The notes below the pieces were generated by a model. That model worked only from the letters and a program-made list of their open reading frames with translations. It was not told the origin of the DNA and did not search any database. Positions 11,114-29,148 of a stretch of 64,000 nucleotides of DNA are shown here, one piece after another; position 1 is the first letter of the stretch, and each line of letters opens with the position of its first letter. The stretch covers positions 62,001 through 126,000 of the forward strand of contig JAURLX010000004.1 of NCBI GenBank assembly GCA_030830965.1, written 5' to 3'. Source of the DNA: Verrucomicrobiota bacterium. GTDB taxonomy: Bacteria > Verrucomicrobiota > Verrucomicrobiia > Opitutales > UBA953. Position numbers and translations under genes: made by a program.

Positions 11114-13177
<2,064 letters not shown>

Positions 13178-13178
<1 letters not shown>

Positions 13179-13627
13179 TGATGTCCGCGTCGAACCCCCT
13201 TCCCTCCGCCGCCGCGGACCTCGCCCGTAGCGGCGATGCGGCCGGCCTGGCCGAGCTGCTTGGAAAAGGGCTCGGCATCGACGCGCAGGACGAGAAGGGC
13301 AACACGCTCCTGATGCTGGCCAGCTACCATGGCCGGGCCGAGGTCGTGGAGCTGCTGCTGAAGGCGGGCGCGGCGGTCGACCTCCGCAATGACAAGGGCC
13401 AGACGCCCCTCGGGGGCGTGGCCTTCAAGGGCCACGCAGGGATCGCGCGGCTCCTGCTCGACGCGGGCGCGGATCCGAAGGCCGACCAGGGAGGGTCGAC
13501 ACCGGCGGACTTCGCGACGCTCGCGGGCAGGACCGAGATCCTCGCGTTGCTCGAGTCGGCCCAGAAGACGGCGGGCCGGCCGCGCTCTTGGTTCGGACGG
13601 CTGGCCGGATGGATCAGAAGGATCTGA
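13178..13627 (+). CDS. Ankyrin-repeat protein
   Basis: A 149-residue protein with about four ankyrin repeats: residues 5-35, 38-70 (GNTLLMLASYHGRAEVVELLLKAGA), 71-103 (GQTPLGGVAFKGHAGIARLLLDAGA) and 104-131 (GSTPADFATLAGRTEILALL). A short basic, amphipathic tail (SWFGRLAGWIRRI) follows. No signal peptide. Ankyrin repeats mediate protein contacts; the partner is unknown. The start codon shares a base with the ligA stop (TGATG); a second ATG at 13181 is equally possible. Likely co-expressed with ligA. Confidence 0.85.
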
Positions 13628-13639
13628 CTCCGGACGGAC

Positions 13640-14041
13640 TCACTTGCAGCAGCCAGAGCGCGGTGCGGCCACGTCGGCGAGGCGGGCGCGCAGGTCGCGG
13701 CGCTCGGCTTCGTCGGTCGCACCTGCGAGCAGAGCCTCAAGGTGACGGACGGTGCGGGCACGGGCGTCGGCGTGACGGGCGGCGGCAAGACGCGAGGCGC
13801 CGAGCTTCCAGAGGGCCAGGACGAGGAGCAGCTGCCCGAACCAGGCGGTCAGGTGGCCCGTGATCTTCTGCGTGGCGGCGACATCGTTGGACGCGCCCTG
13901 CGCGAAGGTCAGGCCCGCCCTGGCAAGCGCGACGATGGCCAGGAAGGCGGCGACCAGCAGGAGGACCCCCGTCCAGCGGGAGCAGCGGGCGGCGCGGCAG
14001 AACGGCGCGGCGAGTTCGGATGATTCCTTGGAGCAGCTCAT
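13640..14041 (-). CDS. Small membrane protein with Cys-rich ends, unknown function
   Basis: I do not recognise this 133-residue protein. It has a cysteine-containing N-terminus (C3, C15, C20), a transmembrane helix (WTGVLLLVAAFLAIVALA, about 23-40), a second hydrophobic stretch (GQLLLVLALWKLG, about 69-81), a basic helical tail and a terminal GCCK. The start at 14041 is supported by a leaderless-type promoter 6 nt upstream and by codon pattern; the frame continues upstream only as an antisense shadow of serB. Confidence 0.65.
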   Translation of the reverse strand: MSCSKESSELAAPFCRAARCSRWTGVLLLVAAFLAIVALARAGLTFAQGASNDVAATQKITGHLTAWFGQLLLVLALWKLGASRLAAARHADARARTVRHLEALLAGATDEAERRDLRARLADVAAPRSGCCK

Positions 14042-14047
14042 GGGAGG

Positions 14048-14076
14048 GAGGATGCTGAACGCCCGACGGGGCGCAA
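14048..14076 (-). promoter_or_regulatory. Leaderless-type promoter of the small membrane protein gene
   Basis: TTGCGC (14076..14071), 17-nt spacer, ATCCTC (14053..14048), 6 nt before the ATG. It lies back to back with the serB promoter. Confidence 0.45.
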
Positions 14077-14085
14077 GCCCCGCCC

Positions 14086-14114
14086 TTGACCTGCCGCCCG
14101 GCCGCAGGTGTAGT
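14086..14114 (+). promoter_or_regulatory. Leaderless-type promoter of serB
   Basis: TTGACC (14086..14091), exact 17-nt spacer, TGTAGT (14109..14114), then 5 nt to a GTG start codon. The transcript would begin at the start codon. Confidence 0.6.
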
Positions 14115-14119
14115 CCGGC

Positions 14120-14761
14120 GTGGCCACGAAGCTCCTGCTCCTCGACTGCGACTCCACCCTCTCCTCCATCGAGGGGGTGGACGAGCTGGGAAGGCTCCGA
14201 GGGCCTGAGGCCTTCAAGGCCGTGGAGGACATGACCAACGCCGCGATGGACGGAGGCACGCCCATGGAGGCCGTCTTCGCCAAGCGCCTCGACCTGATCA
14301 AGCCCACCAAGGCGGAGCTGGAATCGCTGGGAGCCCGCTACGTGGCCACCGTCGAGCCTACCGCCAGGACCGCGCTCGACGCGGTGCGCGTGGCCGGCTG
14401 GAAGATCGCCATCGTCAGCGGCGGCTTCACCCAGGCCATCCTGCCCCTCGCCGCCTTCCTCGGCATCGACCGCGTCGAGGCCGTCACCCTGCGGTTCGGT
14501 CCCGACGGCGCCTACGCAGGCTTCGACGAGACCTGCCCGACCTGCCGGTCCCGGGGAAAGAACGCGGTGGCCCGCCGACTGAGACAGGAATACGGGGCGA
14601 CAACGGTCGTCATGGTGGGCGACGGGGCGAGCGACCTCGAGGTCAAGGGCGATGCGGATCGCGTGATCGGCTTCGGCCGCTACGCCGTCCGCCCCAAGGT
14701 GAAGGCTGGTGCCGACGCCTTCATCACGTCCCTCGACCAACTGCCCGGGCTACTGGGCTGA
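14120..14761 (+). CDS. serB: Phosphoserine phosphatase
   Basis: A HAD-superfamily phosphatase that makes serine from phosphoserine. The 213-residue protein resembles the single-domain (eukaryote-like) SerB: DxDST motif (LLLDCDSTLSSIEGVDEL, nucleophile D9), the cap residues MTNAAMDGGTPMEAVF, motif II SGGF, YAGFDET, and motif III GDGASDLE. There is no ACT domain. It starts with GTG at 14120, which a strong promoter places at the very 5' end of the mRNA. Confidence 0.9.
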   Translation: MATKLLLLDCDSTLSSIEGVDELGRLRGPEAFKAVEDMTNAAMDGGTPMEAVFAKRLDLIKPTKAELESLGARYVATVEPTARTALDAVRVAGWKIAIVSGGFTQAILPLAAFLGIDRVEAVTLRFGPDGAYAGFDETCPTCRSRGKNAVARRLRQEYGATTVVMVGDGASDLEVKGDADRVIGFGRYAVRPKVKAGADAFITSLDQLPGLLG

Positions 14762-14790
14762 GCGGCGCGCGATAATCCGAGACCGGGGGG

Positions 14791-14819
14791 TTGCAGAAGG
14801 CTCCTGGCGCGGTTGAATC
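14791..14819 (+). promoter_or_regulatory. Leaderless-type promoter of the ThuA-like gene
   Basis: TTGCAG (14791..14796), 17-nt spacer, TGAATC (14814..14819), 5 nt before the ATG at 14825. It argues against the in-frame TTG at 14813, which would lie at the promoter itself. Confidence 0.5.
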
Positions 14820-14824
14820 AAGGC

Positions 14825-15622
14825 ATGCGCCGCCTCCTGCCCCTCATCCTCGCCGCCTGGACCGCCCTGCTGCAGGCCGCCCAGTTGGCGCCTTCGCCCG
14901 GCGCGAAGCCGCCCGAGGCCTCGCCCGAGAAGCCGCTGCGCGTGTTCATCCGCTCGGGGCCGAAGTCGCACGGGCCCGGCTGCCATGACCACCCCGCTTT
15001 CCTTCGGGACTGGACCGGCCTGATCCGCGGACGCGGCGCGCACGTGACCGGCGGCGACGCCTTCCCGACCGCGGCCGACCTGGCCGACGTCGATGTCATG
15101 ATCGTCCACCGGCAGGTGGGCGGAAACTTCACCCCCGAGGAGCAGAAGGTCGTGGACGACTACGCCAAGCGCGGCGGCGGCTTCGTCGTGATCCACGCCG
15201 GCGCGGTCGCCGGAGGCGACGCCTCCGCGGACCACTACCGCGACCTCATCGGCGGCTCCTGGCGGCAGAAGGTGACCAAGTGGCGCGAAGGCCCGATGCA
15301 GCTCTCCTTCGTCGACCGCGCCCACCCTGTCACCGCGGACGTGGCCGACTTCGGCATGAACGACGAGATCTACTACGACATGGACCTGCGCCCGGACATC
15401 CACGTCCTCGCGACCGCCCCGACGCCCAAGAAGAAGGATGACGGCTTCGAAGCGCAGCCCCAGATCTGGACTTACGAGAAGTCCGGCGCCCAGCGCGCCT
15501 TCGTCTTCATCCCCGGCCACCGCTACGCGAACTTCGCGCGCCCCGACGTGCAGCTCCTCCTGCTCCGCGGCCTGGCCTGGGCCGGCCGGCGCGACCCGGA
15601 CCTGCTGGTGATCGCGCGCTGA
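14825..15622 (+). CDS. Exported ThuA-like (trehalose utilization fold) protein
   Basis: A 265-residue protein with a signal peptide (RRLLPLILAAWTALLQAAQ) and a ThuA/glutamine-amidotransferase-like fold. Typical stretches are SHGPGCHDHPAFLRDW, ADLADVDVMIVH, GGGFVVIHAGAV, the DEIYYDMDLRPDIHVLA block and GHRYANF. ThuA-like exported proteins are very common in Verrucomicrobiota and Planctomycetota, where they accompany sugar catabolism; the enzymatic activity of the family is not settled. It is monocistronic. Confidence 0.85.
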   Translation: MRRLLPLILAAWTALLQAAQLAPSPGAKPPEASPEKPLRVFIRSGPKSHGPGCHDHPAFLRDWTGLIRGRGAHVTGGDAFPTAADLADVDVMIVHRQVGGNFTPEEQKVVDDYAKRGGGFVVIHAGAVAGGDASADHYRDLIGGSWRQKVTKWREGPMQLSFVDRAHPVTADVADFGMNDEIYYDMDLRPDIHVLATAPTPKKKDDGFEAQPQIWTYEKSGAQRAFVFIPGHRYANFARPDVQLLLLRGLAWAGRRDPDLLVIAR

Positions 15623-15628
15623 GCCCGC

Positions 15629-16150
15629 TCAGGCCCCGAGCAGCTCCCTGAGCCGTCGCCGGCGGTAGCTGAAGATGCCTTCGATCTTCGGCTTCACGAA
15701 CGGGTAGGCCACCTCGCCGAGCGGCCACAGCGGCAGCTTCCAGAGCACCTCGTCGTCCATGCGCGTCCTGCCGCCCTCGTCGGCGAAGGTGTGCGTGTGC
15801 ATCCAGAGCGCGTAGGGCCCGCGCAGCTGCTCGTCGACGAAGCCGTAAGGGGGGTCCCAGTGGGCGATGCGGGTGCGCCAGCCGAAGGGGATGCCGTGGA
15901 GCTTGAGCCGGTAGTCGATGAGCGCGCCGACCCGCATGTCGACCGGCGTCGGAGTGAGGATCCGGAAGTCGAGCTCCGGGGGCGTGATGGCCTGGAGGTT
16001 CTCGGCCCTGGAGAAGAAATCGAAGACCTTCTCGACCGGCAGCGGAATCAGGGAGCTTTCAAAGAAGCGGTGGACGCCCCGGGGGAGTGACCGGGGCCGG
16101 GAAAGGTGGTCTCGACGGTGGTTGCGGATGACTTCGCTGTAGTCGCTCAC
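15629..16150 (-). CDS. SRPBCC/START-like ligand-binding protein
   Basis: A 173-residue protein of the SRPBCC (Bet v 1/START-like) superfamily. It has the family pattern: FESSLIPLPVEKVFDFFSRA at the N-terminus, NLQAITPPELDF, RVGALIDYRLKLHGIPFGWR, and FVDEQLRGPYALWMHTHTF, ending with the C-terminal helix. Members bind hydrophobic ligands or act as small cyclases; this subgroup is often annotated only as a ligand-binding protein. It starts with GTG at 16150 and is transcribed alone. Confidence 0.8.
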   Translation of the reverse strand: MSDYSEVIRNHRRDHLSRPRSLPRGVHRFFESSLIPLPVEKVFDFFSRAENLQAITPPELDFRILTPTPVDMRVGALIDYRLKLHGIPFGWRTRIAHWDPPYGFVDEQLRGPYALWMHTHTFADEGGRTRMDDEVLWKLPLWPLGEVAYPFVKPKIEGIFSYRRRRLRELLGA

Positions 16151-16165
16151 GTTCAGGACGCCGCA

Positions 16166-16194
16166 GACTGGACCCCGCTCGCCCGACTGTCAAG
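16166..16194 (-). promoter_or_regulatory. Promoter of the SRPBCC gene
   Basis: TTGACA (16194..16189), 17-nt spacer, CAGTCT (16171..16166), about 15 nt before the GTG start, so the leader is short. Confidence 0.5.
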
Positions 16195-16255
16195 GGACCG
16201 GGCCTAAATCGGCTTGCCGACCTCGCCCGCAGCCTTTCCCTAAAGGGCCGGCCCC

Positions 16256-16753
16256 ATGTCCTCCCCCCGTTCCCGCAACCGCACCCAGGGTGCCTTCGGC
16301 AACCGTCGCCCGCGCCCGATTGAGCGGGACTTCAGCGAGCCCGCGCCCGCCGCCGACCCGACACCCCGCGAACCGACCATCGCGGACAAGCTCATCCAGT
16401 TCGCGCAGCCGATCCTCCAGCAGGCGGGCAACCACCAGACCGCGGCCAAGGGCGCCATGAACGTCGCCATCCTGATTTGGAACGCCTCGATCGAGGGCGA
16501 GGAGAAGGTGGCCGAGGCCAAGAAGACCCTGGCCGGACTTCCCGGAGCCAGCGTAGAGCAGGTCGAGGAGCTCGTGAAGGTCATGCTCGAGCGCAAACTG
16601 GAGATGTTCCCCGAAGAGAAGCTCCTCATCACCAACTTCGTGCTGAAGTTCAGCCGCCGCCATGGCGACCAGTTCAGGGTCACGGCCGTGAACATCAATC
16701 CCGAGGGCGTCCAGAAGGCGGACCTCTCCGACCTCGTGAAGGTCGGGGGCTGA
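16256..16753 (+). CDS. Conserved-looking hypothetical protein
   Basis: I do not recognise this 165-residue soluble protein. Residues 1-40 are basic and disordered (Arg/Pro/Ala-rich). Residues about 42-150 are predicted helical, with TIADKLIQFAQPILQQAG, an alpha-helical region rich in Glu/Lys (EEKVAEAKKTLAG) and a final beta-rich part (DQFRVTAVNINPEGVQ). The disordered basic tail plus helical body could suit a nucleic-acid or ribosome-associated protein, but that is speculation. A -35-like TTGCCG at 16214 precedes it. Confidence 0.7.
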   Translation: MSSPRSRNRTQGAFGNRRPRPIERDFSEPAPAADPTPREPTIADKLIQFAQPILQQAGNHQTAAKGAMNVAILIWNASIEGEEKVAEAKKTLAGLPGASVEQVEELVKVMLERKLEMFPEEKLLITNFVLKFSRRHGDQFRVTAVNINPEGVQKADLSDLVKVGG

Positions 16754-16765
16754 ACGGGTTTCCGT

Positions 16766-16794
16766 TTGCACCCGGCCGAGGACGGGCCGAAATG
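16766..16794 (+). promoter_or_regulatory. Leaderless-type promoter of pyrC
   Basis: TTGCAC (16766..16771), 17-nt spacer, GAAATG (16789..16794), 5 nt before the ATG at 16800. Same -10 hexamer and gap as at pgi. Confidence 0.55.
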
Positions 16795-16799
16795 AGGGC

Positions 16800-18143
16800 A
16801 TGGCATCGCTCGCCCTCCGAGACGCAGAAGTGGTCAACGAGGGCCGGCGTTTCAGGGCCGACGTCCTGATCCGCGACGGACGCATCGAGCGCGTCGGTGA
16901 CCTGGGCGGCGCGCGCGCCGAAAGCGAGATCGACCTCGGAGGCAAGCTGCTGCTGCCCGGCCTCATCGACGACCAGGTGCACTTCCGCGAGCCGGGCCTG
17001 ACCCACAAGGCCTCCATCGCCAGCGAGTCCCGCGCGGCCGTGGCCGGCGGCGTGACGTCGTTCATGGAGATGCCGAACACGAGTCCTCCGGCGACCACGC
17101 ACCAGGAACTCGAGAAGAAGTACGCCATCGGCGCGGCCACCTCAGTCGCCAACTATTCCTTCTTCTTCGGCGCGACCAACACCAACCTCGACGCCGTCAA
17201 GGCGACCGACCCCCGCAAGGTCTGCGGCATCAAGGTCTTCATGGGCTCTTCGACCGGCGACATGCTCGTCGACCAGGCCGCGACGCTCGAAGGGATCTTC
17301 CGTCACGCCCCCGCCCTCATCGCCACGCACTGCGAGGACACCCCGCGCATCAAGGCGGCCGAGGCCGTCGCCAGGGCCAGATGGGGCGATGACGTCCCGG
17401 CCGGCGAACACCCGCGCATCCGTGACGCCGAGGCCTGCTACGCCTCCTCCTCGATGGCGGCCGAGCTCGCCCGGCGGCATGACGCCCGCCTGCACATCCT
17501 GCACATCACCACCGCCAAGGAACTCTCGCTCTTCAGCGCGGCGCCCCTCAAGGGCAAGCGCCTGACCGCCGAAGCCTGCGTGCACCATCTCTGGTTTGCG
17601 GAGGAGGACTACGCCCGCCTCGGCCACCGGATCAAATGCAACCCGGCGATCAAGAGCGCCGCCGACCGCGACGCCGTGCGCGCGGCCGTGGCCTCGGGCG
17701 TCATCGACGTCATCGCGACCGACCACGCCCCGCACACGCGCGAGGAGAAGGCGCAGGGTTACTTCAAGGCCCCGTCCGGGCTGCCGCTCGTGCAGCACTC
17801 GCTCCAGGTCCTCCTCGATCTCGTCGCGCAAGGCGCCTTCCCGCTGGAGACCGCCGTCGAACGGGCCTGCCACGCGCCGGCCCGTCTGTTCGGCATCGAA
17901 GGCCGCGGCTTCATCCGCGAGGGCCACTGGGCCGACCTCGTGGTCGTGGACCCCTGCAGGCCCGCGAAGGTCGTCGCGGAAGGCCTGGAGTACAAGTGCG
18001 GCTGGTCGCCCTTCGAGGGCCACACCTTCGGCGCCTCGATCGAAAGGACGTTCGTCAACGGCGTCTGCGTCTACGCGGACGGCAAAGTCCGTCCGGACGC
18101 GCCCGCAGGCATGCGGCTGTCCTTCGACGGCAACGCACGCTGA
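16800..18143 (+). CDS. pyrC: Dihydroorotase (Bacteroidetes-type)
   Basis: Dihydroorotase cyclizes carbamoyl aspartate in pyrimidine synthesis. The 447-residue amidohydrolase closely follows the Bacteroidetes-type enzyme: LIDDQVHFREPGLTHK, GGVTSFMEMPNT, KVFMGSSTGDML, IATHCED, LHILHITTAKE and ATDHAPHTREEK. In this subgroup the first His of the usual HxH metal motif is Gln (Q59; H61 kept), so it is a lineage trait rather than a new defect. The remaining metal and substrate residues look intact. It is monocistronic with a leaderless-type promoter. Confidence 0.92.
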   Translation: MASLALRDAEVVNEGRRFRADVLIRDGRIERVGDLGGARAESEIDLGGKLLLPGLIDDQVHFREPGLTHKASIASESRAAVAGGVTSFMEMPNTSPPATTHQELEKKYAIGAATSVANYSFFFGATNTNLDAVKATDPRKVCGIKVFMGSSTGDMLVDQAATLEGIFRHAPALIATHCEDTPRIKAAEAVARARWGDDVPAGEHPRIRDAEACYASSSMAAELARRHDARLHILHITTAKELSLFSAAPLKGKRLTAEACVHHLWFAEEDYARLGHRIKCNPAIKSAADRDAVRAAVASGVIDVIATDHAPHTREEKAQGYFKAPSGLPLVQHSLQVLLDLVAQGAFPLETAVERACHAPARLFGIEGRGFIREGHWADLVVVDPCRPAKVVAEGLEYKCGWSPFEGHTFGASIERTFVNGVCVYADGKVRPDAPAGMRLSFDGNAR

Positions 18144-18177
18144 GGGCACGGGGCGGGTCGGCCGGCGTGGCGTCGAG

Positions 18178-19320
18178 TCAGTCCGCGGGAATCTCGTCCT
18201 TCGCCCCCGCCTCGTACCGTTCGCACCAAGCGCGCGACCAGGAGGCGTAGTCTCCCGTCCGGATGTGCGCATGGGCCTGGGCCATGAGGTCCTGCAGGAA
18301 GTGGATGTTGTGCAGGGCGAGCAGCGTGCCCCCGAGGGACTCGCCCGCGTGGTGCAGATGGCGGAGGTAGGCGCGCGAGAAGCCGCGGCAGGCGTAGTTG
18401 TCGAGCCCCTCGACGAGCGGGCGATGATCGTCCTTGTAACGGAGGTGCTTCAGGTTGACCGGTCCGTCGGGCGTGAAGGCGCCGCCGTGCCTGCCGATGC
18501 GGGTGGGCATCGTGCAGTCGAACATGTCCGCCCCGAGCGCGACCATCTTGAGCAGCTGGGCGGGGGTGCCCACGCCCATGACGTAGCGGGGCTTATGGGC
18601 GGGCAGCAGCGGGGCGACCAGGCCGACCTGATGGAGCATGTGCTCCTCCGGCTCGCCCACGCTGACGCCGCCGATGGCGTGCCCGGGGAAGTCCAACCCC
18701 CCGAGCTCCTCGGCGCAGCGGACGCGCAGGTCGTCATAGACCGACCCTTGGTTGATGCAGAAGAGATGTCGGCCGGAGGCGAGGAACCCGCGGTCCTTGG
18801 CGAGGGCCAGCATCTCCTTGGCCCAGCGGATCGACCGCGTGACAGCGACCTCGCAAGCCTCCCGTTCGCACGGGTAAGGCGGACACTCGTCGAGCACCAT
18901 GGCGATGTCGGAGCCCAGCTTGTCCTGGATGTCGAAACAGTCCTTCACGTCGAGGAACAGCCGGTTGCCGTCGAGATGCGAGCTGAAGTGGATGCCGTCG
19001 TCGGTGATCTGGCGCAGCTTGGCCAAGGAGAACACCTGGAACCCTCCGCTATCAGTCAGGATCGGACGATCCCAGTTCATGAACTTGTGGAGCCCGCCGG
19101 CGGCCGCGACGACCTCCCGTCCCGGACGCAGGTTCAGGTGGTAGGTGTTGCTGAGCAGGATCTGGGCACCTGTCTCCCCGACCTGCGCCGGCGTGAGGCC
19201 CTTGACCGTGGCCTGCGTGCCGACCGGCATGAAAACGGGCGTCCTGACCTCCCCGTGAGGGGTCTGGAGAACCCCGAGACGGGCCGCCGAACGCGTGTCG
19301 GTCTGCAGGAGCTTGAACAC
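18178..19320 (-). CDS. tgt: tRNA-guanine transglycosylase with degenerate zinc site
   Basis: Tgt swaps guanine 34 for the queuosine precursor preQ1 in tRNAs with GUN anticodons. The 380-residue protein has the active-site pieces: LTDSGGFQVFSL, GGVSVGEP, YVMGVGTP and GADMFDCTMPTRIGRHG. The C-terminal zinc motif, normally CxCxxC plus His, here reads L306-D-N308-Y-A-C311 with H337, so two of three cysteines are gone. It starts with GTG at 19320 just behind a promoter box. No queuosine-synthesis genes lie nearby. Confidence 0.95.
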   Translation of the reverse strand: MFKLLQTDTRSAARLGVLQTPHGEVRTPVFMPVGTQATVKGLTPAQVGETGAQILLSNTYHLNLRPGREVVAAAGGLHKFMNWDRPILTDSGGFQVFSLAKLRQITDDGIHFSSHLDGNRLFLDVKDCFDIQDKLGSDIAMVLDECPPYPCEREACEVAVTRSIRWAKEMLALAKDRGFLASGRHLFCINQGSVYDDLRVRCAEELGGLDFPGHAIGGVSVGEPEEHMLHQVGLVAPLLPAHKPRYVMGVGTPAQLLKMVALGADMFDCTMPTRIGRHGGAFTPDGPVNLKHLRYKDDHRPLVEGLDNYACRGFSRAYLRHLHHAGESLGGTLLALHNIHFLQDLMAQAHAHIRTGDYASWSRAWCERYEAGAKDEIPAD

Positions 19321-19327
19321 CCGGAAA

Positions 19328-19356
19328 ACCTAGGGGTCAGGCGGGCGCGCTGGCAA
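19328..19356 (-). promoter_or_regulatory. Leaderless-type promoter of tgt
   Basis: TTGCCA (19356..19351), 17-nt spacer, CTAGGT (19333..19328), 7 nt before the GTG start. Confidence 0.5.
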
Positions 19357-19414
19357 GGGCAAGGCGTGACGTGCCGACGGAGAACGCGGACCTGCCCGGA
19401 CTCCGGAAATCTGC

Positions 19415-19780
19415 CTAAAGGGAGAAGCTCTCCCCGCACGAGCAGCTGGCCTTGGCGTTGGGATTAGAGAACTTGAAGCCCCCGCCAATCATCTTGTCCG
19501 AAAAATCCAGGACCGTTCCGCGCAGGTAGAGGGCCGACTTCGGGTCGACCAGCACCTCGACGCCGGCGGTCCGGACCAAGATGTCCCCGGCCTTGGGGGC
19601 ATCGGCGAAACGGAGACGGTAGGACAGCCCGTTGCAGCCGCCGCCGGAGATGGCCACGCGCAGGAAAGGAACGCCGCCCTCCCGCTCGCGGAGCGCCATG
19701 ACCTTCGCTCCGGCAGGGGCGGTCAGGCGCACGAGCCTTTCATCGGCCTGTCGCGGGGCGCTGGCGATATCTCCTTCCAT
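19415..19780 (-). CDS. IscA/HesB-family iron-sulfur cluster protein
   Basis: A 121-residue A-type carrier that delivers Fe-S clusters to apoproteins. The three conserved cysteines are present: C49 in ISGGGCNGLSY and C113/C115 in the C-terminal SCSCGESF. The GFKFSNPNAKASC stretch matches ErpA/SufA-type proteins. No other isc or suf gene is adjacent. IspH and RlmN in this window, and probably IlvD, are potential clients. Monocistronic, with a leaderless-type promoter. Confidence 0.93.
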   Translation of the reverse strand: MEGDIASAPRQADERLVRLTAPAGAKVMALREREGGVPFLRVAISGGGCNGLSYRLRFADAPKAGDILVRTAGVEVLVDPKSALYLRGTVLDFSDKMIGGGFKFSNPNAKASCSCGESFSL

Positions 19781-19786
19781 TTCAGG

Positions 19787-19815
19787 AAATGAACGCAGCG
19801 ACTCAGGGATGGCAA
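19787..19815 (-). promoter_or_regulatory. Leaderless-type promoter of the IscA-family gene
   Basis: TTGCCA (19815..19810), 17-nt spacer, TCATTT (19792..19787), 6 nt before the ATG. Confidence 0.5.
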
Positions 19816-19834
19816 GCGTGCGGCCAAATCAGGC

Positions 19835-19863
19835 TTGCCCGGGGCCGCCCGGCGCGCCATCTA
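19835..19863 (+). promoter_or_regulatory. Promoter of tRNA-Val
   Basis: TTGCCC (19835..19840), 17-nt spacer, CATCTA (19858..19863), about 16 nt before the mature tRNA. The same box and spacing in front of a non-coding gene supports reading this arrangement as the housekeeping promoter. Confidence 0.5.
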
Positions 19864-19879
19864 GGACGGCCCGGGAGAC

Positions 19880-19956
19880 GGTCGCGTAGCTCAGTTGGTT
19901 AGAGCGCTGCATTCACATTGCAGAAGTCACAGGTTCAAGTCCTGTCGCGACCACCA
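19880..19956 (+). tRNA. tRNA-Val (anticodon CAC)
   Basis: A complete cloverleaf: acceptor GGTCGCG / CGCGACC, D-arm GCTC-loop-GAGC, anticodon stem CTGCA / TGCAG with loop TTCACAT (anticodon CAC, reading GUG), T-arm ACAGG-TTCAAGT-CCTGT, discriminator A and an encoded CCA. CAC-anticodon Val tRNA fits a high-GC codon bias rich in GTG. Confidence 0.95.
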
Positions 19957-20017
19957 CCCGGGGGGCGCGGACGCAGCCGGCAAGGCGCGCCGCCGGCCGC
20001 CCTCGCTTCGCGCCGAA

Positions 20018-20081
20018 GATTACACTTTTAGTATTTTATTATATTTATAAAGCGGTGTTTTCTTTTGTTCCCTTCCATCAA
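20018..20081 (+). other. AT-rich island upstream of an orphan gene
   Basis: In a window that is otherwise very GC-rich, this stretch is mostly A and T (for example TATTTTATTATATTTATAAA). It lies between tRNA-Val and the 120-residue orphan gene, immediately upstream of that gene's -35 box, where an UP element or a nucleoid-protein site would sit. It carries no coding frame. I see no att-site repeat of the tRNA end and no DnaA-box cluster. Confidence 0.6.
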
Positions 20082-20097
20082 GTTCTTATACAAGAAC
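20065..20097 (+). promoter_or_regulatory. Promoter with dyad operator over the -10 box
   Basis: TTGTTC (20065..20070), 16-nt spacer, TATACA (20087..20092), 9 nt before the ATG at 20102. The dyad GTTCTT-ATAC-AAGAAC (20082..20097) covers the -10 box, the position of a repressor operator. In RNA it would be a small hairpin ending 4 nt before the start. Confidence 0.55.
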
Positions 20098-20101
20098 CCT
20101 C

Positions 20102-20464
20102 ATGCCCGACAGCGACCTTTCCAGCGCCGAGTCCAGGTCGCAGCTACGGGCCAAAGGACGAGAGGTCTATGAGAAGAGAGGCAACTGCACGATGGCGATG
20201 CGTATCGACCACTGGCTCCTCCTCGAGGGCGGCGAGCTCGACATCTCCCCGGCCAACTTCCACCGCTCCCTGGCCCGATGGCTGGCCGCGGCCAGGCTGA
20301 TATCGAAACGGGACGTCGAGGAGGTGTCCGCGGCGCTCTACTGCCTGGGGGTGGTCAACTCCAACAACCTGTTCCAGAAGGTGCAGCAGGGGAAGACCGA
20401 GTCGCTGGGCATCGGCCGCAACGGCCGCATCAACAGCCGGGGCTACAAGCGCCAGCAAGGCTGA
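20102..20464 (+). CDS. Orphan 120-residue protein, unknown function
   Basis: I do not recognise this protein. Residues 1-30 are charged and helical. Residues 35-75 form a helical region with DHWLLLEGGELDISPANFHR and a following RSLARWLAAARLISKRDVE. The end is basic and glycine-rich (GIGRNGRINSRGYKRQQG), which could contact nucleic acid. There is no signal peptide or membrane helix. It is expressed from the most AT-rich promoter region of the window, with a dyad over the -10 box, so it is probably regulated or strongly expressed. Confidence 0.65.
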   Translation: MPDSDLSSAESRSQLRAKGREVYEKRGNCTMAMRIDHWLLLEGGELDISPANFHRSLARWLAAARLISKRDVEEVSAALYCLGVVNSNNLFQKVQQGKTESLGIGRNGRINSRGYKRQQG

Positions 20465-20481
20465 GGGCCGCAGGCCCGCCG

Positions 20482-20510
20482 TTGACTTCAACCGGTCCGT
20501 CCGAGAGGAT
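20482..20510 (+). promoter_or_regulatory. Leaderless-type promoter of corA
   Basis: TTGACT (20482..20487), 17-nt spacer, GAGGAT (20505..20510), 6 nt before the ATG at 20517. The same GAGAGGAT could instead act as a Shine-Dalgarno sequence on a longer transcript; this is the only start in the window with such a candidate. Confidence 0.45.
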
Positions 20511-20516
20511 GGACGG

Positions 20517-21710
20517 ATGAGCCGCCAGCAGGAGAGGCGAGAGAAGGACAAGGAACGGGCACGCTCCTTCATCGAGCGACGCCTGGACGACCTTCGACGG
20601 CGGATTGGGCTCAAGAACCCTTCCGCCCCCCTCCCCGGGGAGGCCGCGTTCGACGACACCGAGATCGGACGCGCCCCAGGGCAGCTGCCCGCCGCCTCCC
20701 CCTTCGAATCCAACGCGCCAACCCGCTTCCGGGTGCACAGCTACGACGAGAACACCTCCAAGGTGGAGGAGTTCGCCGACCTCGACTCGATCGGCCGCTA
20801 CGCGGGGCGCCCGGGCATGGTCTGGATCCAAGTGCTCGGCATCACCGACCCGCAGGTCGTGCACGTCGTCGGCGCCTTCTTCGACATCCCGATGCTGGCC
20901 CAGGAGGACGTCCTGACCAGCACCTCACGCCCCAAGTTCGAGGAGCACGGCGACAAGATCCTCGCCGTGGCGAGGGCGGTGCGCATCGGCTTCGAGGAAG
21001 ACACCCCCCGGGGGCAGCAAATCTCGATCGTCGCTGCCCACAACTGGGTCATCTCCTTCCACGAGAACGACGAGAAGATCTTCGAGGCGGTCGAGCGGCG
21101 CATCGTCGAGAACAAGGGCAACATCCGCAAGTGGCACGCCGGCTACCTCTTCTACTCCCTGCTCGACACGCTGGTCGACCGCCTGCTCTACCAGACCGAG
21201 GAGATCGAGGACGCGATCACGGAGCTCGAGGACTCCATCCTCAAGGGCACCGACGACTGGGACCTGAACGAGGTCTACCGGCTCAAGCGCGTCGTGGTGC
21301 GGCTCAGTCGCCTTGCGCAGCCGCTCAAGGAGATGGTCAGCGGGCTGGAGCACTACGAGCACCCGCTGCTGCCCTCGTCCCTGGACATCTACCTGCGCGA
21401 CCTCTACGACCACTCGATCCGCTCCGCCGACCGCATCGAGCACGCCCGCATGGTGCTGCAGGAGCTCCAGGAGTACCACCATACCCAGCAGGAGAGGAAG
21501 ACCAGCGAGGTCGTCCGCGTGCTCACGGCGATGAGCTCGGTCTTCATCCCGCTGACCTTCCTCGTCGGCGTGTGGGGCATGAACTTCGAGTCCATGCCCG
21601 AGATTCACTCGGAGTGGGGCAGGAAGTACGGCTACCTGCTGGCGTGGGGCACGATCGGGCTCACGGCCCTCGGCATCACCCTCTGGATGAAGCGCAAGCG
21701 CTGGTGGTGA
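20517..21710 (+). CDS. corA: CorA-family magnesium/cobalt transporter
   Basis: A 397-residue CorA channel for Mg2+ uptake in the inner membrane. A long cytoplasmic N-domain (about 1-335) with the coiled stalk helix precedes two C-terminal transmembrane helices. The signature GMN motif is in VGVWGMNFESMPE after the first helix (TAMSSVFIPLTFLVGV). The protein ends MKRKRWW, as in many family members. It is slightly longer than E. coli CorA because of a charged N-terminal extension (about 1-70). Confidence 0.95.
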   Translation: MSRQQERREKDKERARSFIERRLDDLRRRIGLKNPSAPLPGEAAFDDTEIGRAPGQLPAASPFESNAPTRFRVHSYDENTSKVEEFADLDSIGRYAGRPGMVWIQVLGITDPQVVHVVGAFFDIPMLAQEDVLTSTSRPKFEEHGDKILAVARAVRIGFEEDTPRGQQISIVAAHNWVISFHENDEKIFEAVERRIVENKGNIRKWHAGYLFYSLLDTLVDRLLYQTEEIEDAITELEDSILKGTDDWDLNEVYRLKRVVVRLSRLAQPLKEMVSGLEHYEHPLLPSSLDIYLRDLYDHSIRSADRIEHARMVLQELQEYHHTQQERKTSEVVRVLTAMSSVFIPLTFLVGVWGMNFESMPEIHSEWGRKYGYLLAWGTIGLTALGITLWMKRKRWW

Positions 21711-21728
21711 GCGCGGGTCGTCCTCGCC

Positions 21729-23987
21729 TCAGGCGCAATCCTGGGCGTCGACGTCCAGGACGTCCGTGACGTCGGCGTCGCGCAGGAACTTCGCGCGCAG
21801 GGGCAGCAGGGCGGCGAGCAGCGGCTTCACGGCCGGCACGAGGTACCAGACATGGAACCGGTGCTGGTCGTGCACCTTCTCGAAGGGACAGGGCGCGGGC
21901 CCCCGGACCTCGGCGACGCCCGGGTGCAGGCGCTCCAGCTCCTTCACCCAGGCCTCCGCGACGAAGGAGACCTTCTCGGCGTTGCGGCCGCGGAAAAGGT
22001 GCCGCACGAGGTGCCGCTCGGGCGGGTAGCCGAACTCGGCGCGGCGCTCCAGCTCGGCCGAGACGAAGCCGGCGTAGTCCAGCCGCTTGGCGAACTGCAC
22101 GGGGTCCGAGGCCGGCTGGAAGGTCTGCACGACCACCGCCCCCTCGAGGTCGCCCCGCCCCGCCCTGCCCGCCACCTGCGTGAGCAGCTGGAAGGTGCGC
22201 TCCGGGGCCCGGAAGTCGGGCATCTGGAGCGAGAGGTCGGCGTCCAGGATGCCGACCAATGTGACGCGAGGGAAATCGAGCCCCTTGGCGATCATCTGGG
22301 TGCCGAGCAGGACGTCGTGCCGTCCGGCCCGGAAATCAGACAGGACCTTACGGAAGAGGTCCTTGCGCCCCATGGTGTCGGCGTCGAGACGAGCGACCTT
22401 CATCCGCGGGAAAAGCTGCGCCAGGGCCTCCTCCGCGCGCTGGGTGCCGTACCCCTTCCAACGTACCTTGGGCGAACGGCAGGCGGGACAGGCGACCGGC
22501 GCCGGCTCCCGGTGGTCGCAGAGATGGCAGCGGGCGGTGTCGTCGGTCCGGTGGAGCGTGAGCGAGACGCTGCAGCGCGGGCACTGCGCCGCGACCCCGC
22601 AGTCCGGGCAGACCAGCGAGCGGGAATGGCCGCGCCGGTTGAGGAACAGGATGGACTGCTCGCGCCGCTCCATCCGCTCACGGAGGGCGTCGACCAGCTC
22701 GCGGGAGAGGATGTGCTGCCCCTTCGCATGCAGGACCTCGCGACGCATGTCGACGATGCGAAAGGCCGGCATCGGGCGGTCGTCGACGCGCGCGGGCATG
22801 ACGTCGAGGACGTAGCGCCCGGCCGCGGCGTTGCGCCAGCTCTCGAGCGAGGGCGTCGCGGACCCCAGCACGCAAGCGGCGCCGAGCATCGAGGCACGCA
22901 TGACGGCGACGTCGCGGCCGTGATACATGGGCGTCTCGGACTGCTTAAAAGAGGCCTCGTGCTCCTCGTCCACCACGATGAGCCGCAAGTCGGGCAGCGG
23001 CGCGAACACGGCCGAACGCGCGCCGACGACCACGCGCGCCTGTCCGAGCGACATGGCCATCCAGGCGTCGAAACGCTCGCCGGCGGAAAGGTGGCTGTGC
23101 CAGACGACGACCTTGGTCCCGAGGTCGGCGAGCCGGGACCGCAGGCGTCCGACGGTCTGCGGGGTAAGCGCGACCTCGGGCACCAGGAAGACGGCAGAGC
23201 CTCCCTCGGAGACCACCTTGCGGATCAACGAGACGTACACTTCGGTCTTGCCCGAGCCGGTGACGCCGTGGAGCAGGTGGGCGCGGAAGGCGCGCGCGTC
23301 GAGGGTCGCGCACACCGACGCGACCGCCGCAGCCTGCTGCGGATTGAGCGGGTGGCCCGCGGCGGGCACGCCTTCGGCCTCGGCGAAAGGGTCGTCGTAC
23401 GCGACCCGGAGCAGCACGCTGGCGTCCTCCCGGACCGCGCCCGAGCGGATCAGCGCGTCCACGGCCTGCTGCGAGACCCCCAGCCCGGCCACCGCCTTGG
23501 CGCGATCGGCCGGACCGGGCTGGGCGGAAAGGAAATCAATCAGCTGGGCCTGCCGCGGAGCGCGGCGCCGCAGCTTGTCGAGCGCCTCCGCGTCAGGCGC
23601 GCGGACCAGCGTGAGCATGCGGCGCATGACGGGGCGCACGCCCTTGCGGACGGCGGCCGGCAGGAGCGTCTCCAGCACCGAGTTGAGCCCGCAGCCGTAG
23701 TAGCCGGCCATCCATTCGGCCAGCCGGCAGCAGTCGGTCGTCATCACGGGCTGCTCATGCTCGAGCAGCATCACGCTGCGGAGGCGGGCCCCGGCCGGAG
23801 GCTCGGCCGGGCATCTCCACACCACCCCGAGGCTGGTGCGCCCGCCGAGCGGGACGCGCACGAGCTGCCCGGGCCGCAGCAGGCCGATCAGGGCCGCCGG
23901 CACCGAATAAGAATACGCCCGCGCACCGCCGTCGAAGGGCACCACCTCGGCGACGCCGGGTTCGACTTCTCCGAAGAGATCGGGCAC
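21729..23987 (-). CDS. priA: Primosomal replication restart helicase PriA
   Basis: PriA reloads the replisome at stalled forks. The 752-residue protein has an N-terminal DNA-binding domain, a DEAD/DEAH helicase core with Walker A (LLHGVTGSGKTEVY) and DEEH (IVVDEEHEASFKQ), and motifs toward VAGRAGRGDLEG. The zinc-binding insert is complete with four CxxC pairs (CPDC, CPRC, CHLC, CPAC), in contrast to LigA and Tgt here. It starts with GTG at 23987 behind a leaderless-type promoter. Confidence 0.95.
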   Translation of the reverse strand: MPDLFGEVEPGVAEVVPFDGGARAYSYSVPAALIGLLRPGQLVRVPLGGRTSLGVVWRCPAEPPAGARLRSVMLLEHEQPVMTTDCCRLAEWMAGYYGCGLNSVLETLLPAAVRKGVRPVMRRMLTLVRAPDAEALDKLRRRAPRQAQLIDFLSAQPGPADRAKAVAGLGVSQQAVDALIRSGAVREDASVLLRVAYDDPFAEAEGVPAAGHPLNPQQAAAVASVCATLDARAFRAHLLHGVTGSGKTEVYVSLIRKVVSEGGSAVFLVPEVALTPQTVGRLRSRLADLGTKVVVWHSHLSAGERFDAWMAMSLGQARVVVGARSAVFAPLPDLRLIVVDEEHEASFKQSETPMYHGRDVAVMRASMLGAACVLGSATPSLESWRNAAAGRYVLDVMPARVDDRPMPAFRIVDMRREVLHAKGQHILSRELVDALRERMERREQSILFLNRRGHSRSLVCPDCGVAAQCPRCSVSLTLHRTDDTARCHLCDHREPAPVACPACRSPKVRWKGYGTQRAEEALAQLFPRMKVARLDADTMGRKDLFRKVLSDFRAGRHDVLLGTQMIAKGLDFPRVTLVGILDADLSLQMPDFRAPERTFQLLTQVAGRAGRGDLEGAVVVQTFQPASDPVQFAKRLDYAGFVSAELERRAEFGYPPERHLVRHLFRGRNAEKVSFVAEAWVKELERLHPGVAEVRGPAPCPFEKVHDQHRFHVWYLVPAVKPLLAALLPLRAKFLRDADVTDVLDVDAQDCA

Positions 23988-23993
23988 GGAAGG

Positions 23994-24022
23994 ATGCTCG
24001 CCGAGGCGAAACCGGGATTCAA
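23994..24022 (-). promoter_or_regulatory. Leaderless-type promoter of priA
   Basis: TTGAAT (24022..24017), 17-nt spacer, GAGCAT (23999..23994), 6 nt before the GTG start. Confidence 0.5.
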
Positions 24023-24044
24023 GCGAGGGTTCCCGGGGCCGCCC

Positions 24045-25211
24045 TCATCTGCCTTCCGGCTTCTCGCCGCTGGTCAGCGGGCTGGCGGGGATGGACAGGC
24101 TGCCGGGAGCGTCTGGTCGCTCCGGGTCGAACGGCACGGCCGCCCCGGCCATCAGCAGCGCCGAGAGTTCGGGCACGCCGGTCCGGAAGCCCTCGACGAC
24201 GCAGCGGGCCATCTCGTAGGCGCCGTAGGCGCTGAAGTGCGTGTCGTCGGCCAGCGCCGCCGTCTGACCGGGGAAGGTGCGCGGGGGGTAATGGAGGAGC
24301 GCCAGCTTGCTCGGCTCGGCCCCGAGCGCCTGATAGAGCCGCTTAGAGGATTCGTTGAGGTCGACGAGCGGGACGGCGAGCTCCGCGGCCACGCGCCGGA
24401 CCGCCTCCGGATAATCGCCGAGCGACTCGAAGACCCTGCCCTGTTCGTCGAATCGGCGGCGGGCCACGGCGGTGACCAGGACCGGCCGGCCGCCCTTCGC
24501 CCGGACGGCCTTCACGTAATCGCGCAGCCGGGATGCGTAGGTGGTGAAAGGGCCGACATCAGGGCCTTTCTCCTTCTGGTCATTGTGACCGAACTGGATC
24601 AGGACGAAGTCGCCCGCACGGAGCTGGGCCAAAATCTTGTCGAGACGGCGCTCGGCCTTGAAGGAACGCAGGGCCCGCCCCGATTCGGCATGATTGGCGA
24701 CGACGGCCCCGGGGCCGAAGAAGACCGGGAGCTGCTGCCCCCATCCGACGTAGGGCTCGGTCCTCTGATCGCAGACCGTGGAGTCGCCGGCCAAGAAGAC
24801 GCGGACGACCGAGGCGTCGGCCGGCCTGACTGAGACCAGACGGGCGCGTCCCGCGACGCCGAGGAACTCGAGCGAAAGATAGTCGTCCCAGGAGGGCGTG
24901 CCCTCCTCGCGGGACTTGATCGCCACGCGCCCGCCAGGGTATCCGGGGCGACGCACGTCGACGAGGAATCGGCGGGTCTCCGTGCGACCCTTCGGGACTG
25001 CGACGTTCAAGGCCATCAGCCGGCGGGTCTCCGCCTTGAGGGTCGTGACAGAGTCGACGTCGGCCGCGCCGAACTCGACCGTCACCTCGTAGGCGCCCTC
25101 CGGCCGCGCCTCGCGATAGGACAAGACGGGCCGTTCGGCCGAACCGACGAAGACCGGCGGCTCCGCCGCCGCCGCGGCGATGGTCAGAAGACAGGGGATG
25201 ACAGGGTTCAT
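24045..25211 (-). CDS. Exported GDSL/SGNH esterase (rhamnogalacturonan acetylesterase-like)
   Basis: A 388-residue exported hydrolase. After a short signal peptide comes an N-terminal beta-rich accessory domain (about 18-130), as in CE12 enzymes. The SGNH esterase domain follows: block I FLAGDSTVCD (nucleophile Ser), block III IQFGHNDQKEKG, and block V ADDTHFSAYGAYEMA with the catalytic Asp/His. This suggests deacetylation of plant pectin (rhamnogalacturonan), though acetyl-xylan or other esters are possible. It is the last gene of the long minus-strand operon headed by rpmI, or has its own promoter that I could not place. Confidence 0.85.
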   Translation of the reverse strand: MNPVIPCLLTIAAAAAEPPVFVGSAERPVLSYREARPEGAYEVTVEFGAADVDSVTTLKAETRRLMALNVAVPKGRTETRRFLVDVRRPGYPGGRVAIKSREEGTPSWDDYLSLEFLGVAGRARLVSVRPADASVVRVFLAGDSTVCDQRTEPYVGWGQQLPVFFGPGAVVANHAESGRALRSFKAERRLDKILAQLRAGDFVLIQFGHNDQKEKGPDVGPFTTYASRLRDYVKAVRAKGGRPVLVTAVARRRFDEQGRVFESLGDYPEAVRRVAAELAVPLVDLNESSKRLYQALGAEPSKLALLHYPPRTFPGQTAALADDTHFSAYGAYEMARCVVEGFRTGVPELSALLMAGAAVPFDPERPDAPGSLSIPASPLTSGEKPEGR

Positions 25212-25224
25212 GAAGGGAGCCTGG

Positions 25225-25929
25225 TCAGGCCCGGACGGCCGGGACGGGGTCGCTGGAATGCGTCGCGATGCGGGCGCACATCAGGGCCCAGAAGCAGCCG
25301 ATGCAGTTCGCCACGACCAGCTGCAGGGAGGTCGGGAGCGAATAGAAGATGAAGGTACCCGGCAGCCACACACAGTAGTTGGGCAGGAGATTGGGCAGGA
25401 CGAGCCGGCGGTACCAGCCCGGTCCCATCGAAGCCCTGAGGCGGGACAGATCCCAGCCATAGTCCTTCCAGAGGTGGGAGATGGCCTGCAGGGGCGCGCC
25501 GATGAACACGGTGAAGCCGAGCATGTCGACCGCGACCTTGAGACTGACCGCGCGGAGGCTGGGTTCCTCGCCGAACCAGCGCGCCTGCAGGGAGTAGAAG
25601 CCGCTGATAAGCACGCCCATGAGCGCCCACCAGACGAGGCAGTGCACGAGGTCGGGCAGCGGATGTCTCGGGCGCAAGCGGGGGAAGGCCATGCGGAAGC
25701 ACCAGGGTACGAAGCCGGCCGAGAAGGACGACCAGGCCGCCGCGAAGACCAGCGGGGAAGCGTCATTGAGGCGACCGACCCGGTCGAGCTCCCCGCGGAC
25801 AACATCGACCCGGTAGTAACTGACCGCAAGCACGGTCGCGAAGCAGAGGATGATCAGGAGCGGCAGGAAGTTGTCGCGCACGGCCCGGAGGCCGGCCGTC
25901 CACGGCGGAGGCAGGGCTTGATCGCTCAT
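25225..25929 (-). CDS. Multi-pass membrane protein, distant Mpv17/PMP22-like pattern
   Basis: A 234-residue inner-membrane protein with about five to six hydrophobic segments (near residues 22-42, 63-80, 95-115, 131-150, 180-200, 203-222). The second half (KVAVDMLGFTVFIGAPLQ, then NYCVWLPGTFIFYSLPTSLQ) loosely follows the Mpv17/PMP22 family layout of a helix, W-x-W/P region and C-terminal helix, but I cannot confirm this. It overlaps gatB by ATGA, so the two are translationally coupled. Function unknown. Confidence 0.7.
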   Translation of the reverse strand: MSDQALPPPWTAGLRAVRDNFLPLLIILCFATVLAVSYYRVDVVRGELDRVGRLNDASPLVFAAAWSSFSAGFVPWCFRMAFPRLRPRHPLPDLVHCLVWWALMGVLISGFYSLQARWFGEEPSLRAVSLKVAVDMLGFTVFIGAPLQAISHLWKDYGWDLSRLRASMGPGWYRRLVLPNLLPNYCVWLPGTFIFYSLPTSLQLVVANCIGCFWALMCARIATHSSDPVPAVRA

Positions 25930-27398
25930 CCCAGGATGCGCCGGAGGAGCTGGTCGACCAGACCGGGGTTGGCCTTGCCCTGGGTCCGCTTCATGATCGG
26001 GCCCTTGAGCGCGTTGATGGCCTTCTCATTGCCGGCACGGTATTCGGCGATGGACTTGGCGACGGACGGATCGGCCACCACCTCGCGGATGATCTTCTCC
26101 AGCTCGCCGGTATCGCTGTTCTGGCGGAGGCCCTTGGCGTCGACGATCGCGGCCGCCTCGTTTCCGGTGCTGAACATCTCGGCGAAGACCTCCTTGGCCT
26201 GCTGCTTCGAGATGACGCCCTCGTCGGTGAGCTTCACGAGGCCGGCCAGGGAGGCGGGCCGGATCGGGCAGGCCGAAAGGGGGATGGGCGGCACGGCGGC
26301 GGACAGGTCGCGCAGGAGGTCGTTGGCGACGAGGTTGGCGACGCCCGATGGGTTGGCCGGATGGGCGGCCACGGCGGCCTCGAACCATTCGGCGAGGGCG
26401 CGGTCATTCACGAGGACCGAAGCGGCGGTATAAGGCAGGCCGAGCTTCTCGACGTAGCGGCGCTGGCGGTCGTAGAGGTTCTCGGGGACCTGCTTGGCGA
26501 GACGCGCGACGGTCTCGCGGGAAATCCTCAGGGCCGGGATATCCGGATCCGGGAAGTAACGGTAGTCGTGGGCGTCCTCCTTGTCGCGCAGGACGTAGCC
26601 CCGGGCGAGCTCGGCGTTCCAGCCGCGAGTCTCCTGGGTGATGGAGCGGCCGGCCTCGAGTTCGCGGACCTGGCGGGCGGTCTCGTGCAGGACGGTGTCG
26701 CGGACGCTGGAGATCGAGTTGAGGTTCTTGGTCTCAGTACGGGTGCCGAGCCTGGCGTCGCCGCGGCGGCGCACGGAGACGTTGCAGTCGCAGCGCAACT
26801 GTCCCTTCTCCATGTCACAATCGGCCACGCCGGCCTGGGTGAGCATCGCGACCAACGAACGGAGGAAGGCCTCGGCCTCCGCGGCGGAGCGCAGGTCGGG
26901 CTCGGTGACGATCTCAAGGAGCGGCACGCCCGCGCGGTTGTAGTCGACGAGCGATCCGCCGCCCGCATGGCTGAGCTTACCCACGTCCTCCTCGAGGTGC
27001 GCATGATGGATGCGGACGAACCTGTGCTCCCCCATCACGTTGCGCGAGGGACCGGGCAGCTCGATCTCGACCCGCCCGCCGACGACGACCGGGAAGTCCT
27101 TCTGCGTGAGCTGGTAGTTCTTGGGATTGTCCGGGTAGAAGTAGTTCTTCCGGTCCCAGGCGCAGCGCTCAGGAATCTCCGCGCCCACGACGAGGCCGAA
27201 TAGGACGGCCTTCTCGACCGCCTCGCGGTTGACCACCGGCAGCGTACCGGGAAGGCCGAGCACGACCGGGTCGACCTGCTCGTTGGGCTCCTTGCCGAAA
27301 CCCCAAGGGGAGGACGCGAAGACCTTGGCGCGGGTGCGCAGCTGGACGTGGACCTCGAGGCCGATGACGACTTCCCAATCCGAAGGTGCTTGGCTCAT
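25926..27398 (-). CDS. gatB: Asp-tRNA(Asn)/Glu-tRNA(Gln) amidotransferase subunit B
   Basis: GatB binds and activates misacylated Glu-tRNA(Gln) or Asp-tRNA(Asn) for amidation. The 490-residue protein begins with the family motif VIGLEVHVQLRTRAKVF, has LPGTLPVVN, NYFYPDNPKNYQLTQ and the metal-site region HLEEDVGKL. It ends with the tRNA-binding YqeY-like tail domain (KANPGLVDQLLRRIL). It overlaps gatA at ATGA. Presence of GatCAB implies the indirect route to Gln-tRNA or Asn-tRNA. Confidence 0.97.
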   Translation of the reverse strand: MSQAPSDWEVVIGLEVHVQLRTRAKVFASSPWGFGKEPNEQVDPVVLGLPGTLPVVNREAVEKAVLFGLVVGAEIPERCAWDRKNYFYPDNPKNYQLTQKDFPVVVGGRVEIELPGPSRNVMGEHRFVRIHHAHLEEDVGKLSHAGGGSLVDYNRAGVPLLEIVTEPDLRSAAEAEAFLRSLVAMLTQAGVADCDMEKGQLRCDCNVSVRRRGDARLGTRTETKNLNSISSVRDTVLHETARQVRELEAGRSITQETRGWNAELARGYVLRDKEDAHDYRYFPDPDIPALRISRETVARLAKQVPENLYDRQRRYVEKLGLPYTAASVLVNDRALAEWFEAAVAAHPANPSGVANLVANDLLRDLSAAVPPIPLSACPIRPASLAGLVKLTDEGVISKQQAKEVFAEMFSTGNEAAAIVDAKGLRQNSDTGELEKIIREVVADPSVAKSIAEYRAGNEKAINALKGPIMKRTQGKANPGLVDQLLRRILG

Positions 27399-28852: not shown

Positions 28853-28855
28853 GGC

Positions 28856-29146
28856 TTATGACTCGTCGTCCACCACGCGCGGGACGGAGATCTGCCCGTC
28901 ACGCGAGGCGGGCGCGAGGCGCGTGACGGCCTCGACTCCGAGGACCGGACCGGGCTCATCGGAACGCAGGGCGGATTCGTCGACGACGCGCGCGTCGTCG
29001 GCCGTCGCGGGCAGATCGGCCTTCGCCAGCGCCTGGAAGTGGCCCAGGACCTGGCCCAACTGCGAGGCGTACAGCGCCTTCTCCTCGGCCGTGAGGCTCA
29101 GACGGGCGAGCTTCGCCAGGTGGTCGATGTCGAAGCCTTCGGCCAT
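28856..29146 (-). CDS. gatC: Asp-tRNA(Asn)/Glu-tRNA(Gln) amidotransferase subunit C
   Basis: GatC is the small subunit that wraps GatA and GatB together. The 96-residue protein has the family pattern: IDHLAKLARLSLTAEEK at the start, QLGQVLGHFQALAKAD in the middle and LRSDEPGP toward the end. It starts 2 nt after the pheT stop and ends 3 nt before gatA. Confidence 0.95.
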   Translation of the reverse strand: MAEGFDIDHLAKLARLSLTAEEKALYASQLGQVLGHFQALAKADLPATADDARVVDESALRSDEPGPVLGVEAVTRLAPASRDGQISVPRVVDDES

Positions 29147-29148
29147 GC

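Follow-up and report, generated by a model that had tools for sequence, protein, structure and literature searches.

Why should the most AT-rich DNA of a whole contig lie in front of a small gene that matches no known protein family? The question was raised by one locus in the window, that is, the whole stretch of 64,000 nucleotides that was analysed, which comprises bases 62001-126000 of contig C12 (387,284 bases). The source genome has 1,835,002 bases in 30 contigs and is 87% complete, and most of its named relatives are Opitutae (Verrucomicrobiota) from freshwater. What is new here is an undescribed lineage-limited gene with an apparent control element, notable in relatives and diverged in the window. 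The pair is a candidate for a protein family not yet described whose DNA partner is sharply defined, and at stake is whether the product may regulate itself as a DNA-binding protein that lacks any recognised domain, or may act on the chromosome. Our literature searches, of partial coverage, on the gene family, on lineage-specific genes accompanied by conserved intergenic DNA, and on Verrucomicrobia origins returned nothing on this gene.

Setting and base composition of the locus

Upstream, on the reverse strand, lie tgt (18178-19320) and an ErpA/IscA/SufA-type iron-sulphur assembly gene (19415-19780), here called ErpA-like, whose protein scored above the cut-off for subfamily TIGR00049 only. 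They are followed by a forward tRNA-Val gene with anticodon CAC (19880-19956), the AT island defined by scans of AT content (20014-20061), which is the site where relatives have a conserved element, and the forward gene for a family-restricted protein of 120 amino acids (20102-20464). Downstream are corA (20517-21710, forward) and priA (21729-23987, reverse). When positions 16190-25211 were compared with locus L031, corA lay between the 120-aa gene and priA in the window and not in L031, and tgt had the opposite orientation in the two.

The GC content is 29.8% in 20018-20101 versus 65.0% in the ORF, whose GC3 of 0.893 is ordinary for the source genome. Nowhere else in the contig does a 36-nt stretch reach 83% AT, and the island is one of two places in the genome where 27 of 30 nucleotides are A or T. 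The exceptional break in composition described by the sequence-only reading was thus borne out, and it is stronger than that reading could know. Over 20-24 nt, the corresponding island ranked first for AT within its own contig in the source genome (G000), G052 and G010, first or joint first in G001 (joint first of two at 20 nt), and third to fifth in G039. The other equally AT-rich place of the source genome (contig C30, 14376-14405; L109) is flanked by ORFs that we judged by eye to be prepilin-type and ExbB-like.

Promoter hexamers and dyad

The same reading had placed a promoter, TTGTTC-16-TATACA, on the forward strand at 20065-20092 (TTGTTC at 20065-20070, TATACA at 20087-20092), with a dyad GTTCTT-N4-AAGAAC at 20082-20097 as its operator. 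The hexamers, the 16-bp spacer and the dyad are present letter for letter. The promoter had been called the closest to consensus here, which did not hold: it scores 3 + 4 = 7 of 12, and 1,073 sites of the window are equal or better. In this loose scan of the whole window (at least 3/6 at the -35, spacer 15-19), 953 sites scored 7, 109 scored 8 and 11 scored 9; one of the score-9 sites starts within the AT island, at 20019. A stricter sigma-70 scan of 12000-30000 found zero sites, with 0.7 expected.

The dyad is at chance level. When the 145-nt intergenic stretch was simulated 2,000 times with an order-1 Markov model, a perfect 6-bp dyad with a loop of 3-8 appeared in 23% of the runs, and in 12% of simulations restricted to its AT part. 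The dyad is also missing from L002 and L003, the loci of the two nearest relatives. The hexamers and the dyad were consequently dropped as promoter and operator, being of chance quality and unconserved. Of the original observation, the island and the orphan ORF stood, and the best-consensus promoter and the significance of the dyad fell.

Distribution, selection and loss of the gene

Searches with the 120-aa query and then with a 21-sequence profile found homologues in 42 of the 79 family genomes: 39/55 in the window's genus and 3/6 in another genus, with none in the family's three other genera. In a sample of the phylum, 5 of 387 genomes were matched at E <= 0.01, and the three with convincing matches are all within the family. 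The remaining genomes, G215 and G331, were considered as distant homologues and taken as chance, because their matches (E 0.001-0.002) cover positions 2-64 only and have no tRNA beside them. A contig titled Akkermansia muciniphila (L025) carries a gene nearly identical to that of Opitutae records (L024), and its title probably reflects a mislabelled bin.

Across 11 pairs, dN/dS was between 0.026 and 0.43, with the peak between the window and its nearest relatives (0.43 and 0.37). The 120-aa ORF is a real protein-coding gene under purifying selection. The claim of an orphan gene was upheld.

The tRNA-Val(CAC) gene is a constant neighbour upstream, adjoining the gene in all 42 gene-bearing genomes. 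A tRNA gene is a common integration site, and the AT tract lies directly downstream of one, which would suit the remnant of a mobile element. We consider such an origin extremely improbable, given that the order is identical in 42/42 gene-bearing genomes, with the same tRNA at the same place, that the ORF matches its genome in GC3 (as above) and GC (0.650), and that no relatives were found in phages, plasmids or viral contigs. A mobile-element or phage origin was therefore dropped. In G052, a 40-kb segment (contig C3, 84-126 kb; L077-L079) has a GC of 0.56-0.63 in a 0.67 contig and is perhaps an acquired island.

The lineage can do without the gene. The tRNA-Val leads directly into priA, without gene or element, in G041, G043 and G045; in G049 other DNA takes the place of the gene, and in G053 the gene and the tRNA are both absent. 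In G049, the DNA that fills the interval from tRNA-Val to the end of priA (L096, 400-1100) encodes a QTIGNQTYT-like repeated peptide. In a tree of the ErpA-like gene, which is short, G041 stood apart from the other four genomes just named. Because of this separation, and because the sister genus has the gene at the same place, two losses of the gene are likely.

A conserved element upstream of the gene in relatives

Alignment of the relatives' intergenic DNA revealed a non-coding element of approximately 70 bp, which consists of an AT box (TTTATTAGTTTATAATATTA-like) and a 41-bp box that reads about GATTGTAATTAGGTGTTCCCAGCAAACTGTCGCTTAATTAT in the largest clade. The AT box holds TATAAT, which is followed at 30 nt by TGTTC[CA]C in most aligned sequences. 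A conserved -35 hexamer 17 nt upstream of TATAAT was not found. In eight genomes of the largest clade, 62 of 70 positions of the element did not vary, whereas among the 47 fourfold-degenerate sites in the neighbouring gene 9 were invariant. The element is conserved far beyond neutral sites in most relatives; a non-coding stretch is kept more strictly than the silent sites next to it.

A sequence-only model of the element built from relatives and including the window (R1) found it, at E <= 1e-6, in 35 of the 55 genus genomes and always beside the gene. R1 includes sequences from many of the genomes searched, so that the count of 35/55 is partly by construction; uniqueness within genomes and absence elsewhere are not. 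Four of the 39 gene-bearing genus genomes had no significant element (G018 without a match, G035 and G030 with a weak match at the right place, and G046 with a weak match at the wrong place). The 16 gene-lacking genomes of the 55 had no match below E 0.001, the best being that of G045 (0.009). A search of 955 kb (contigs and loci from three genomes) gave only three element matches, which were the three gene loci. In most relatives, the element is present and absent together with the gene, as one strong copy per genome.

Second copies were seen only as weak matches (E about 0.1) in G050 (contig C26; L176, 1016-1110) and, in the same form, in G036 (contig C145; L177). The match reads ATAATATTATTAACAGT, then TTGACA and CAACTGTCTGTTATG; downstream of it come GC-rich non-coding DNA of about 250 nt and an ORF that begins MNKQRVKELRRLRNQ. 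In these two close relatives, it might represent a second regulon member.

The element could also form the 5' portion of a structured RNA leader with a regulatory role. One branch of relatives has an inverted GACAGT/ACTGTC, and L001-L003 have hairpin-like repeats immediately ahead of the start codon; in L002 and L003 these are inverted repeats other than the dyad, as judged by eye. However, RNAalifold gave 0 consensus base pairs for the element in 25 aligned sequences, and the Rfam matches of note were tRNA-related only. We regard an RNA leader as very improbable and dropped it for want of pairing and of an Rfam family.

Divergence of the window's own copy

The window's matches under R1 are circular, because the window sequence was part of that model. 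A second model (R2) was built without it. With default filters, R2 had no match at E <= 10 in the window and the contig. With filters off, only a non-significant alignment of the AT box appeared (forward strand, 20025-20049), and its E of 3.9 was equalled at an unrelated place. In a 12-kb search, the AT box aligned in L003 (E 0.023) and in L002 (E 0.094). Since the leave-one-out model R2 finds no significant element, the window's branch would share only the AT tract and its place. It appears that the second box was lost, changed or replaced in this branch and the AT part kept, and that the protein has drifted in the window's lineage, where the AT tract, in the same position, is all that is still recognisable.

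Counted from TATTAT (20037-20042) in the window, TTGTTC starts at 28 nt and its TGTTCCC core at 29 nt. Set beside the 30 nt of the relatives, the 29-nt spacing looks like a positional resemblance only and is by itself no evidence.

The protein product

The alignment of 21 sequences has 26 invariant columns, which include NSNNLFQK and the frame of the tail GIG(K/R)xGRxN; the basic tail of the GIGKNGRRN type, rich in Gly, Arg and Asn, is conserved across the family. The predicted model is all-helical, with a mean pLDDT of 86.8.

No family library matched the 120-aa protein above its cut-off, and a sequence search of the PDB gave no match, including to RTP and Tus. Foldseek returned five PDB matches, none at E <= 0.001; a common fold with RTP or Tus could have escaped this search. 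VIA-align gave a single row (Z 3.0, 44 residues, rmsd 4.0), and the viral structure library gave 18 matches, none at E <= 0.001. PF22194 (F-93_WHD) was matched by one of the 21 members (E 0.0024; 18.4 bits, under the cut-off of 28), and the predicted model is all-helical. In these fold and domain searches, no helix-turn-helix or known DNA-binding fold was clear.

We believe that the product is probably a small nucleic-acid-binding protein. The earlier interpretation thus survives in outline (an orphan gene behind an unusual, AT-rich control region, with such a product), without its specific hexamers and operator.

Possible control of the gene by its own product

Our best explanation, which we hold tentatively and with slightly less than even confidence, is that the stretch from tRNA-Val to the ORF is the dedicated promoter and operator of the family-restricted gene, whose small, probably nucleic-acid-binding product is possibly self-regulating. 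The conserved element would be the binding place of RNA polymerase and of one or more regulators, and the small basic product may bind nucleic acid, perhaps on its own element. In the window's lineage, the putative control region would retain the AT part, with the second box lost or replaced.

We suggest self-regulation because there is one dedicated site per genome, because the product is small and basic, and because the divergence of the element tracks that of the ORF. The partial correlation between the two was 0.48 with the ErpA-like neighbour removed (0 of 2,000 permutations) and 0.49 with the Tgt neighbour removed (0 of 1,000 permutations), and 0.48-0.51 overall with these neighbours removed. 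The ErpA-like gene also tracks the element (0.42 with the ORF and Tgt removed; 5 of 1,000 permutations), which weakens the co-divergence and makes it non-specific. As a sign of self-regulation, it is no more than suggestive.

Alternatively, the element could be no more than a strong promoter whose upstream part is AT-rich, with the protein acting elsewhere, for example on RNA or ribosomes, and not on its own gene. The TATAAT-like core is conserved at a fixed spacing, as such a promoter would have it, and the basic tail suits RNA as well as DNA. The AT box and the 41-bp box, however, are conserved over about 70 bp, beyond the need of a bare promoter, and the -35 spacing is unconserved. We consider this alternative somewhat unlikely, with an appreciable chance of being right.

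Small autoregulated nucleoid-associated proteins and transcription factors are basic and have a single operator-like region upstream. The present protein would resemble them by analogy in size, basic character and one conserved upstream region, and differs in that no known DNA-binding domain was found here.

Comparison with chromosomal sites

The element may also be a chromosomal site, such as an origin, terminus, fork trap or anchoring site, that is served by the adjacent protein as Ter is by RTP or Tus. It is single in each genome and the top AT-rich spot in most contigs examined, priA is in the neighbourhood, and the protein is small and lineage-limited, as RTP is. Some relatives have TTGTTCACA, which is DnaA-box-like, and the same letters occur upstream of dnaA in the source genome. 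Nevertheless, GC skew, raw and gene-corrected, had no consistent sign change at the element in the five contigs examined, which are partial (G000, G052, G010, G039 and G001). In addition, dnaA is on another contig, and the gene and element are absent from G041, a genome that is 99% complete. Exact TTWTNCACA boxes number three in contig C12, none near 82 kb, so that there is no cluster nearby. We judge a chromosomal site unlikely.

Among such sites, oriC was unsupported, given the absent DnaA-box cluster, the absent skew switch, the position of dnaA elsewhere and the dispensability of the locus. The locus resembles an oriC with an AT-rich unwinding region in its unique AT-rich spot and the one DnaA-box-like word of some relatives, and differs from it on these same grounds. 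A terminus found no support in the skew of these five partial contigs, and an XerCD dif site none in C12, where no dif-like 28-bp sequence lies within 9 mismatches of the Proteobacterial consensus, from which a divergent dif may differ.

The genes of RTP (Bacillus) and of Tus (E. coli) each have a ter site in their promoter (PMC10331603). RTP and Tus are self-regulated fork-trap proteins, and their likeness to the present locus is one of arrangement only, namely a lineage-limited protein with a conserved DNA site in its own promoter region. RTP and Tus have several sites, where the genomes here have one each; in addition, the partial contigs examined gave no replication signal at the locus, and no match was found here in sequence or fold. 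By analogy, the protein and its one AT-rich site could be a two-part unit inherited and lost together, in which the site would be both the operator and the place where the protein takes part in replication, anchoring or nucleoid organisation of the chromosome. Such a unit would have arisen independently as a parallel to RTP/Ter and Tus/Ter; we give this idea only a small chance.

Upstream of dnaA in the source genome, TTGTTCACA and TTGTTAACA words occur in L072 at 1640-1650 and 1913-1925, and these are perhaps the DnaA boxes of the lineage and mark a candidate oriC.
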